The notes beneath the pieces were generated by a model. It was not told the DNA's origin. It did no database searches and worked only from the letters and a program-made list of their open reading frames with translations. From the NCBI GenBank assembly GCA_021414085.1, contig JAIOPC010000014.1, positions 372,001 to 436,000 on the forward strand: a stretch of DNA of 64,000 bases. Direction: 5' to 3'. This document shows positions 57,412-60,741 of the stretch, one piece after another. This DNA is from Actinomycetes bacterium. GTDB taxonomy: Bacteria; Actinomycetota; Acidimicrobiia; Acidimicrobiales; Ilumatobacteraceae. The first letter of the stretch is position 1; each line of letters starts with the position of its first letter. The position numbers and the translations under genes were made by a program.

Positions 57412-59127
<1,716 letters not shown>

Positions 59128-59154
59128 TCAAGGTCGAGAGTCGGAAAAAGTAAG

Positions 59155-59181
59155 AAGCCCCGGCCGCTTTGGCTGGGGCTT
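59155..59181 (-). terminator. Attenuator terminator hairpin before leuA
   Basis: On the minus strand AAGCCCCAGCC pairs with GGCCGGGGCTT (one A-C mismatch) around a five-base loop, followed by TTCTTACTTTTT reaching 59144. It lies 26 bases before the leuA Shine-Dalgarno and stops transcription before leuA unless prevented. Together with the leucine-rich leader this is a classical amino-acid attenuator. Confidence 0.8.
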
Positions 59182-59184
59182 TGA

Positions 59185-59213
59185 GGGCAAGCGCGAGTAT
59201 GCGGCGCTTGCCC
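59185..59213 (-). promoter_or_regulatory. Leader hairpin overlapping the leader-peptide stop
   Basis: GGGCAAGCGC and GCGCTTGCCC form a perfect ten-pair stem with a nine-base loop. Its outermost pair includes the first base of the stop codon region of the leader peptide, so a ribosome paused at the leucine codons would be just upstream and one at the stop would disrupt it. Part of the attenuator switch. Confidence 0.75.
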
Positions 59214-59248
59214 TACATAAGAAGCAGGAGGCCGCGGTGCGTGCGCAT
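59213..59248 (-). CDS. Leucine leader peptide (leuA attenuator)
   Basis: Eleven codons and a stop: MRTHRGLLLLM, with four consecutive leucine codons (CTC CTG CTT CTT). It is far too short for normal gene finding. Ribosome stalling here when leucyl-tRNA is scarce would let transcription continue into leuA. There is no Shine-Dalgarno, and the -10 element ends only seven bases before the ATG, so the peptide is probably read from the very 5' end of a leaderless RNA. Comparable leuA leaders are known in Streptomyces. Confidence 0.85.
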   Translation of the reverse strand: MRTHRGLLLLM

Positions 59249-59255
59249 TGACGAC

Positions 59256-59284
59256 AGTCTGCCGAGTACTCGCCCTGTTGTCAA
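59256..59284 (-). promoter_or_regulatory. Promoter of the leucine leader and leuA
   Basis: On the minus strand a perfect TTGACA (59284-59279) is followed after exactly 17 bases by CAGACT (59261-59256). Initiation would fall at 59249-59248, the first base of the leader ATG. The -35 box overlaps the stop codon of the homospermidine synthase gene. Confidence 0.65.
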
Positions 59285-60741
59285 CGTGTGAGGAAGTTGT
59301 TGAACTGCCAGGGATCGCTGGCGTCCACCTGGGCAGCCTCATCGCTGAAGCGGGCAAACAGGTCGCGTCGGCTGCTGACCGGATCCCAGTCGGTCGGCCC
59401 AGAGTGCAGTGTGCCGAGGTATCGGCGCGCAACCGCGAGCAGGTCTTCCCATGGCAGATCGTCGGGCACACACACCCCCTCGTTGGGGTTCTCGATCATC
59501 CAGGTCACGGCGGCGATGATGCTGCCGGCCACTTGCACCGTGGTGGCGCTCTGGTGTGGAACGACGGCGCGCGCTTCGTCGATGCTGAGCAGCGAGCCGG
59601 TCCACCAACTCTTGTAGGGGTGCCCCATGAGTAGGACGCCAAGTTCGTCGCGGCCGCTGATGATCTCGTCGTTGAGGATGCGCTGCGCGGGCTGCATCTC
59701 CCAGCCGCGCATGCGCAGTTCCAGCACGCTATTGATCGCCGCGTCGCACGGGTGATACGCGTAGTGAACCGTCGGCCGGTAGACAGCCTTGCCGCTCGAG
59801 TCGTTCACCGTCAGGTGTTCGCACAGCGTGAACGCCTCGCCATGGCGCACGACCATGCCGCGGATCTCGCCGCTTGGCACCCAGCTGCGCACCCACGTCT
59901 CGATGCCGGGTTGCGCGATGCAGATCTGGTTGCACGGACCCTCGCCAGTGTGCACGTATGCATTCGCTGGCAGCTGACGCTCGTGCGTGCCCCAACCCAT
60001 CTCGGCTGGTGCAACGCCCTCCTCGTAGAGACCGTCGACCGACCACGTGTTGACGAACTCGTTGGTGCGCTTCGGAACGGCCGACACCTGCGTGTCGCGT
60101 TCGGCGATGTGAATCACCTTGGTGCCGGTGAGCATCGCCAAGTCGTTGAAACGCCGGTCGGCGAGTGCTGCTTCCAATGCCGGCGTGTTCGAACCGCCGA
60201 GACCGTCGGCCAACATGCGGGTGGCGATTTCGGCGAGTGCCTGTTTGGCGAAGTGGCTGACCAGACCAGGGTTGGCGCCATGCTCGAGCACCGCAGTCGC
60301 GCCCTTGTTGTCGGGCCAGCTCGCCTTCATGCGGCGCAGGTTCATGTGGCGGACGTAGAGCGTGCGCTCCAATGGCGGTGTGGAAGTCAGCTCGTCGTAA
60401 GGATCCCATACCTCGACGCTTGTGTTGAGGTAGCGCACGCCGTGATCGCGGCACCACTGCAGGATCGTCGGATTGTCGATGTTCCACGCCAGATCGAGCA
60501 ACAGATCGCCGTCTCCGACACGGGCAGTCAGGAATTCGTCGAGATTGTCCTCTGTGACGCGATCCAGCTCGAAGCGAACGCCCAGCGCGAGGGAGGAGGC
60601 GATGCGGTCGCGATTGTCTGTGAAATCAACGACGGTGACGCTGGCCGGTGGAACTCCGAGATCGCGGACCAGCAGTGGAACTACGCACTGCGCCACCGAC
60701 CCACAGCCGAGCACGAGTATGCGCTCGGGATGGTGGCTCAT
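59281..60741 (-). CDS. Homospermidine synthase / saccharopine dehydrogenase-like protein
   Basis: 486 residues from ATG 60741. RILVLGCGSVAQCVVPLLVR is the Rossmann dinucleotide site; LLDLAWNIDNPTILQWC, then YLNTSVEVWDPYDEL, VLEHGANPGLVSHFAKQAL and MGWGTHERQLPANAYVHTGE follow bacterial homospermidine synthase, which makes sym-homospermidine from putrescine and NAD+. The related saccharopine dehydrogenases lack the long C-terminal part seen here. It overlaps a 61-residue upstream gene by ATGA. Confidence 0.88.
   Translation of the reverse strand: MSHHPERILVLGCGSVAQCVVPLLVRDLGVPPASVTVVDFTDNRDRIASSLALGVRFELDRVTEDNLDEFLTARVGDGDLLLDLAWNIDNPTILQWCRDHGVRYLNTSVEVWDPYDELTSTPPLERTLYVRHMNLRRMKASWPDNKGATAVLEHGANPGLVSHFAKQALAEIATRMLADGLGGSNTPALEAALADRRFNDLAMLTGTKVIHIAERDTQVSAVPKRTNEFVNTWSVDGLYEEGVAPAEMGWGTHERQLPANAYVHTGEGPCNQICIAQPGIETWVRSWVPSGEIRGMVVRHGEAFTLCEHLTVNDSSGKAVYRPTVHYAYHPCDAAINSVLELRMRGWEMQPAQRILNDEIISGRDELGVLLMGHPYKSWWTGSLLSIDEARAVVPHQSATTVQVAGSIIAAVTWMIENPNEGVCVPDDLPWEDLLAVARRYLGTLHSGPTDWDPVSSRRDLFARFSDEAAQVDASDPWQFNNFLTR

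Follow-up and report, generated by a model that had tools for sequence, protein, structure and literature searches.

A hairpin at the leader stop codon upstream of leuA in Acidimicrobiia suggests attenuation without a detectable antiterminator

Introduction

The trpL, leuL and hisL leaders of E. coli are each led by a Shine-Dalgarno (SD) sequence. The leader described here, which precedes leuA in a bacterium of the Ilumatobacteraceae, resembles them in its pathway-product codons, its position before the first gene and its intrinsic terminator. However, in our folding test an antiterminator forms with the ribosome at the control codons of the E. coli leaders, whereas none was found here, and the first hairpin of our leader, denoted as P1, begins at the stop codon and not among the control codons.

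Closer counterparts are known from other bacteria. In S. lividans, the leuA leader LeuL1 (peptide MRFGLLLLSCRGEGL, then stop) is reported as leaderless and as being without a typical Rho-independent terminator (PMC8079986). LeuL1 and the present leader share a short Leu-run ORF before leuA and, very probably for the present leader, a leaderless start, but here a hairpin at the stop codon and a terminator follow, in contrast with what is reported for LeuL1. As leaderless leu leaders before leuA are already known from LeuL1, this part of the arrangement is not new. LeuL2, the leuS leader of S. lividans, is described in the same paper as a leaderless Leu leader with a hairpin and a U stretch behind it. 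It resembles our locus in these features, but leuS is controlled there and leuA here. The LEU element (PMC1262725) combines a Leu leader, a proposed pseudoknot and a base stem between Leu codons and the SD; this stem, proposed for the actinobacterial element, is not supported here.

In the 'fast' attenuator reported for C. glutamicum ilvBNC (PMC11857589), the transcript starts at a distance of about 1 nt from the leader start codon, and the hairpin adjoins the terminator so that the decision falls at the boundary of two adjacent hairpins, which resembles the arrangement proposed here. It differs in that a GCC trinucleotide is common to antiterminator and terminator and an anti-antiterminator is reported there, whereas our two hairpins lie side by side, in general without overlapping, and P1 is tied to the stop codon. 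For M. tuberculosis ilvB1, a terminator and an antiterminator are described (PMC13236596). Mycobacterial polycysteine ORFs, as outlined in a review (PMC9031893), are similar as leaderless short ORFs with a run of a single amino acid and regulated downstream genes, but translation is regulated there, in contrast with the conserved intrinsic terminator here. For attenuation or leader peptides in Acidimicrobiia or Ilumatobacter, we found no paper in the open-access literature. What is new is a stop-codon hairpin without a detectable antiterminator, which recurs across the class and in three branched-chain operons.

Results

Leader and hairpins upstream of leuA

The window, that is, the whole stretch of 64,000 nucleotides that was analysed, carries a leucine leader, its hairpins and leuA, all on the minus strand (Table 1). 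An initial annotation of this DNA, which gave no strand, had pointed to an 11-codon ORF with four Leu codons, a ten-pair hairpin touching its stop codon and a second GC-rich hairpin followed by a T-run, and we recovered each of the three at the coordinates given there. The leader codons are ATG CGC ACG CAC CGC GGC CTC CTG CTT CTT ATG TAG. The arms of P1, GGGCAAGCGC and GCGCTTGCCC, pair positions 59213-59204 with 59194-59185, and the first of the ten perfect pairs uses the G of TAG. The second hairpin, denoted as T, runs directly into its U-rich tract. The leuA protein scored 788 bits against TIGR00970 (cut-off 697.4).

Table 1. Positions of the leuA leader features in the window, and of two further leaders of the same genome
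Feature	Position	Strand	Remarks
-35 element TTGACA	59279..59284	(-)	read from sequence; TTG at -35 in 72/126 loci
-10 element CAGACT	59256..59261	(-)	spacer to -35 of 17 nt; 7 nt 5' of leader ATG
Leader peptide ORF, MRTHRGLLLLM then stop	59213..59248	(-)	start ATG 59248-59246; very probably leaderless
Four consecutive Leu codons CTC CTG CTT CTT (sensor)	59219..59230	(-)	sequence
P1 hairpin	59184..59214	(-)	10 perfect pairs plus closing A-U from fold; loop CGCATACTC
Terminator hairpin T, AAGCCCC-A-GCC / GGC-C-GGGGCTT	59155..59181	(-)	2 nt 3' of P1
U-rich tract of terminator, CTTACTTTTTC	59144..59154	(-)	read from sequence
leuA SD-like AAGGA	59124..59128	(-)	read from sequence
leuA, 2-isopropylmalate synthase, 568 aa	57412..59118	(-)	Pfam HMGL-like, IPMS_D2 and LeuA_dimer; TIGR00970
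ilvBNC leader, this genome	locus L224, about 1330-1440; model match C17:205761-205824		outside window
Citramalate synthase leader, this genome	locus L002, about 714-860; ATG C17:451233		outside window

The 105-nt leader folded better than its shuffled versions (z = -3.89; 0/200 shuffles as good), and the 130-nt stretch down to leuA was less extreme (z = -2.44; 5/200 shuffles as good). The full layout of Leu-run ORF, P1 and T occurs once in the window. A generic promoter and terminator scan of the window reported neither this promoter (0 promoters found) nor T, and its one terminator-like site is on the plus strand; as such, simple consensus scans miss both elements. Rfam covariance models gave 0 matches over the window at the gathering score, the best sub-threshold hit reaching 28.4 bits where 39 are required.

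The next gene upstream on the same strand (59281-60741, with saccharopine dehydrogenase-type domains) has its TGA stop codon, 59281-59283, inside the -35 box of leuA, so that some read-through transcription into leuA is possible. The distance from this stop codon to the leader ATG is 32 nt.

Conservation of the layout before leuA

We collected leuA loci from the best 80 of 395 relatives, from further relatives and from genomes of the class. The sampled relatives are mostly metagenome genomes of Actinomycetota, Acidimicrobiaceae and Ilumatobacteraceae, and include Desertimonas flava (Acidimicrobiia, Ilumatobacteraceae). The leuA type of the window was found at E 1e-100 or better in 94/296 class genomes, from which 60 upstream regions were taken, leaving out G264 and the fragments in G222 and G245. 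From the resulting 198 loci we retained 168 upstream regions, no two identical and none shorter than 110 nt, after removal of L002, L104 and L106-L112 (best match starting past residue 25), L152 (too short) and 20 exact duplicates; near-identical regions remain among the 168, and as the species are related, counts across loci are not independent events.

Of the 168 upstream regions, 158 contain a short ORF that closes with a run of 3-5 Leu codons, at most one further codon and the stop. The Leu run comprises four codons in 75 leaders, three in 74 and five in 9, and the start codon is ATG in 109 and GTG in 49. Usually 5-8 codons precede the run and vary between species, while the Leu run and the stop are constant. 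By rule, P1 was found in 155/158 with 7-13 pairs (mode 10), and in all 155 its start and the first base of the stop codon are 0-4 nt apart (2 nt in 94, 3 nt in 50). T was sought where P1 was found and was present there in 155/155 loci, with 4 or more U in 8 nt, and the gap between the two hairpins was 0-6 nt in 153/155. The three leaders in which the rule gave no P1 (L146, L155 and L180) still form one hairpin at the stop codon and another besides, their P1 stems being longer or interrupted. Two loci whose assigned T lay more than 8 nt away were excluded from the folding tests, which therefore cover 153 leaders; in L157, T is directly 3' of P1 and had been mis-assigned by the rule, and L044 has an ambiguous fold.

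Covariation was analysed in 65 of the 153 leaders, picked by hairpin size at no more than 88% identity, so that the counts lean toward regular members: 10/13 consensus pairs changed on both sides, and 96.0% of cells were paired compared with 41-57% in slid structures. The initial annotation had named conservation of the Leu codons and hairpins in close relatives as a test of its reading and had proposed a covariation search of leuA upstream regions; both came out in its favour. Within 485,457 bases around the leuA genes of 80 relatives, there were 85 Leu-run ORFs, and 79 of these had the full layout, one each in 79/80 loci. The 79 are taken to be the leuA leaders. On these counts, a chance origin is negligible.

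Codon usage and loop sequence were also biased. CTT accounts for 235/567 Leu codons in the leaders, compared with 6.8% of 4698 in the leuA ORFs at these loci, as far as the sequences cover them, and is the last Leu codon of the leader in 115/158. The motif CATA occurs in the P1 loop of 83/153 leuA leaders, where 4.9 were expected with shuffled loop letters, the species being related and thus not independent. The P1 loop of the window's leuA leader spans 59195-59203, and CATA is also present in the ilvB P1 loop of this genome.

The ten regions outside the 158 are varied. In L122 and L189 the layout is the same but the Leu run is interrupted, and in L181 the run lies two codons before the stop and the first hairpin is weak, with 5 pairs. 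L190, L192 and L195 carry a different Leu-rich leader (e.g. VSFLLELRLLYPAA, then stop) with a -10-like hexamer 7-8 nt before the start, which is possibly another attenuator design. L186 keeps P1-like and T-like hairpins behind a short ORF, VNVKQSTRLRQ then stop (identified by eye), without a Leu run, and may be a decayed or re-targeted leader. Upstream of leuA in L162, L194 and L198, no leader or hairpin design was recognisable. Separately, the records of L064 and L071 are titled Bifidobacterium breve, yet their leuA and leader are of the Acidimicrobiia type, so the titles look wrong.

A covariance model of the leuA leader matched in 31/31 relatives at E 0.01 or better, G027 being matched only at 0.0011. 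In five genomes of the same order that have no gene closely matching this leuA (G023-G026 and G028; loci L261, L262, L270, L279 and L284), a Leu leader, P1 and T precede a different type of isopropylmalate synthase (IPMS), and two of these five proteins were typed and match TIGR00973, leuA_bact. The presence of the Leu leader before another IPMS type indicates that, across a change in enzyme type, the leader was either retained or relocated. L293 looks by eye like a tRNA with its terminator. Outside the class, 19 leuA loci were examined. By eye, 16 of them have a Leu leader that corresponds to the published LEU type and lacks the P1/T pair; of the others, L204 is of the window's type, one has a different leader and one has none.

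Leaderless transcription of the leader

To define the leader start for -10 counts across the 158 leuA loci, we took the nearest in-frame ATG or GTG. A YANNNT hexamer ending 4-9 nt before this start was present in 126/158 loci, most often at 7 nt, compared with 3/158 at leuA starts, 21/158 at 37 nt upstream and 1/158 downstream of the leader. TTG occupied the -35 position in 72 of the 126 loci, compared with 4-14/126 in shifted controls. SD-like 4-mers were found at 14/158 leader starts and at 95/158 leuA starts. Because of the conserved promoter spacing together with the lack of an SD at the leader, the 5' end of the transcript very probably coincides with the leader start codon or lies only a few nt away, as judged from sequence. 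The initial view of a leucine leader peptide that controls leuA is supported, and its leaderless start, which had been read from TTGACA-17-CAGACT, is very probable.

The same design before ilvBNC and citramalate synthase

A covariance model built from leuA leaders only was run against this genome and matched leuA (1.8e-17), the ilvB leader (3.4e-8) and two weaker sites. The latter, C17:665817 and C9:50694, were dropped as they overlap the ends of long ORFs, which we take to be proS and alaS.

The ilvB leader of this genome encodes MRAQITTPSILVVLIV and a stop, with the control codons ILVVLIV directly before the stop, and has CAGACT 7 nt 5' of its ATG. A 9-pair P1 is located at the stop codon and the terminator follows 1 nt later. 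In the class sample, ilvB was matched at E 1e-150 or better in 72/80 genomes, and 29 of the 30 loci examined have a leader with Ile, Leu and Val codons. The P1 offset is 0-2 in 29/29 of these leaders, P1 and T are 0-6 nt apart in 28/29, and at least 4 U lie in the 8 nt after T in 26/29. A -10-like hexamer was counted in 21/28 leaders, a biased count as the start codons were chosen to favour the hexamer.

The citramalate synthase gene of this genome was typed as TIGR00977. Its leader reads TTGACA-18-TTGAAT-6-ATG and encodes MSSQPAKPITTTAIIIC and a stop, the control codons being AIIIC (three Ile, then Cys) before the stop. A 12-pair P1 lies at the stop codon, followed by a 10-pair terminator. 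The leuA-trained model did not find this leader at E 1. Judging from the sequence, its leaderlessness is less sure due to a GAGG just before the ATG. In the class sample, the gene was matched at E 1e-150 or better in 48/60 genomes, and an Ile leader with P1 and T precedes it in 9/30 loci examined; of the 8 loci from the family to which this genome belongs, 7 have it. Many of the loci without the leader seem, by eye, to have another coding gene directly upstream. Start codons were chosen to favour a -10-like hexamer here too, which biases the -10 counts. For citramalate synthase together with leader peptides or attenuation, one paper, about a Methanothermobacter, was found in the open-access literature.

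As such, the control codons LLLLM of leuA, ILVVLIV of ilvBNC and AIIIC of citramalate synthase, each followed by a stop, match the product of the respective operon, and this genome has at least three attenuators of this design. Upstream of trpE of this genome, no short ORF containing Trp was seen.

Folding with the ribosome in place

In a nascent-RNA test, the RNA was masked from its start to 12 nt beyond the first nucleotide of the A site (A+12), the 3' arm of T was absent, and capture of the T 5' arm by upstream RNA was scored; the test was repeated with footprints A+9, A+12 and A+15. At A+12, capture above 0.5 with the ribosome at Leu1 or Leu2 was seen in 0/153 leuA leaders, and mean capture was 0.05 at Leu1, 0.04 at Leu2, 0.17 at the last Leu and 0.29 at the stop. 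Capture above 0.5 at Leu1 remained at 0/153 for all footprints, and at Leu2 it was 0 for A+9 and 3/153 for A+15. As controls, three E. coli leaders were tested with the ribosome at the control codons and at the stop. Between these two positions, capture fell from 0.71 to 0.01 in trpL (Trp codons) and from 0.55 to 0.00 in leuL (Leu codons). In hisL it was 0.61-0.67 with the ribosome on the His codons and 0.66 with the ribosome on the stop, so that hisL alone does not discriminate. The gain in capture at the control codons of the three controls was 2.5-9.3 kcal/mol. For the ilvB leaders, an antiterminator was found in 0/29 at the first two control codons, and capture occurred in about a fifth at the stop. 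The leuA leader had initially been called a complete attenuator, a description that is not supported, given that no antiterminator was found at the first Leu codons.

Equilibrium folding, in which T forms in nearly all loci at every ribosome position, might be read as proof that T is unregulated. This reading was dropped: E. coli trpL, leuL and hisL also keep T in equilibrium folding, and therefore the equilibrium test cannot judge antitermination.

While the T arm was rarely captured, P1 responded strongly to the position of the ribosome. When the ribosome was masked onto the 153 loci, the probability of P1 was 0.98 at Leu1, 0.92 at Leu2, 0.37 at the last Leu and 0.00 at the stop. The last Leu codon was sensitive to the footprint (0.78, 0.33 and 0.02 for A+9, A+12 and A+15), and with the longest footprint a ribosome at Leu2 lowered the probability to 0.59. 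In the free RNA of the window leader, the probability of P1 was 0.98. The initial annotation had also proposed alternative folds in which GCCGC in the first hairpin pairs with GCGGC in the leader and in the terminator arm. We found no such competition in the window sequence, considering this high probability of P1, and the pairing partner in the leader is not maintained, since the codons before the Leu run that supply GCGGC differ between species. A pseudoknot between ACAUA of the P1 loop and UAUGU at the leader end was likewise considered and dropped, since the loop also occurs in species in which ACG or ACC precedes the stop.

Proposed mechanism and alternatives

We give about even credence to the reading that the leuA leader is a leucine-sensing attenuator on a leaderless mRNA, in which the switch is P1 and not a terminator/antiterminator pair. 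Transcription would start at or near the leader ATG and the ribosome would load at the 5' end, as the promoter spacing and the missing SD suggest. The ribosome would then read usually 5-8 codons, 3-5 Leu codons rich in rare CUU, no more than one further codon and the stop. Because all sensor codons specify one amino acid, a leucine-starved ribosome is expected to halt at the first of them, which would leave P1 intact. With ample leucine, folding predicts that a ribosome at the stop codon covers the 5' arm of P1, which then could not form. The state of P1 was the sole RNA difference that we found between the starved and fed ribosome positions and, considering that starvation must give read-through, closed P1 should mean read-through. 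The abutment of P1 and T (0-6 nt) suggests a steric clash with the exit channel. A closed P1 at the RNA exit channel would hinder T closure by keeping T from zipping to its base, with read-through into leuA as the presumed outcome, while the geometry suggests that an open P1 would let T close and transcription stop.

The main weakness of the P1 switch is at the last Leu codon, which is most often the rare CTT, yet a ribosome there half-opens P1 and blurs the difference between the starved and fed states. In addition, P1 can re-form after the ribosome leaves, and the timing must therefore be right. L186, which keeps P1 and T without a Leu run, also counts against this reading.

Classical attenuation, with an antiterminator unseen by folding, is fairly unlikely. 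In this scheme, a stall at the last Leu would open P1, and the 3' arm or loop of P1 would capture part of T through pairing that is weak, tertiary or assisted by a protein, for long enough to allow read-through. The preference for a rare last Leu codon (CTT in 115/158) and the partial opening of P1 by a ribosome at that codon are consistent with it, as are the 47/153 loci in which, with the ribosome at the stop, the 3' end of P1 is able to pair just 3' of T, and the 3-nt overlap of antiterminator and terminator reported for C. glutamicum ilvBNC (PMC11857589). However, capture above 0.5 at the last Leu codon was reached in only 0, 7 and 17 of the 153 leaders (A+9, A+12 and A+15), and the mean gain there was 1.0 kcal/mol at A+12, far from the values of the E. 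coli controls (2.5-9.3 kcal/mol). Moreover, capture at A+12 was higher at the stop (0.29) than at the last Leu (0.17), the opposite of what classical attenuation would require.

It is rather improbable that P1 instead serves mainly to pause or time RNA polymerase so that it keeps step with the leaderless ribosome, with read-through set by ribosome-polymerase coupling or by a loop-binding protein. This explanation draws on the CATA motif, found in 83/153 leuA P1 loops against 4.9 expected and, by eye, in 9/10 ilvB P1 regions of near relatives, the latter being a biased set since it was found via the leuA model. Nevertheless, CATA is absent from 70/153 leuA loops and, by eye, from 24/28 ilvB P1 regions, and a mere pause leaves the abutment of P1 and T unexplained.

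Translational control as in the LEU element is very improbable. Here the Leu codons would pair with the leuA SD, which a stalled ribosome would set free. The Leu-run leader peptide before leuA is shared with that element (PMC1262725), and pairing of the Leu run with the region upstream of leuA was better at its own locus (-6.01 kcal/mol) than with a segment further upstream (-4.97 kcal/mol). However, own-locus pairing was no better than that after swapping between species (-6.29 kcal/mol), shuffling of codon order (-6.26 kcal/mol) or resampling of codons (-6.40 kcal/mol), and the LEU-type base stem was rejected on this ground. In addition, a terminator was found in 155/158 leaders here, whereas PMC1262725 describes none for leuA. 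We regard it as equally improbable that leuA is not leaderless and that P1 and T mainly terminate RNA from the upstream gene on the same strand (stop at 59281). The position of that gene's stop codon inside the -35 box, only 32 nt from the leader ATG, favours such a reading, but across relatives the promoter elements keep their distance to the start of the leader, and ilvB and citramalate synthase show the layout as well.

Discussion

In the folding tests, the hairpin at the stop codon is the element that differs with the position of the ribosome. For the leuA, ilvBNC and citramalate synthase operons of Acidimicrobiia, we tentatively propose, at somewhat less than even confidence, an antiterminator-free attenuator in which the stop-codon hairpin acts as a steric brake on termination and is released only when the leader peptide is finished. 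Textbook attenuation relies on two rival folds. If the proposal is true, the readout would be whether the ribosome reached the stop codon and not which rival fold formed, a simpler route from ribosome position to transcription decision. The layout would also serve as a sequence marker for annotating the control of branched-chain amino acids in a class known largely from metagenome genomes.
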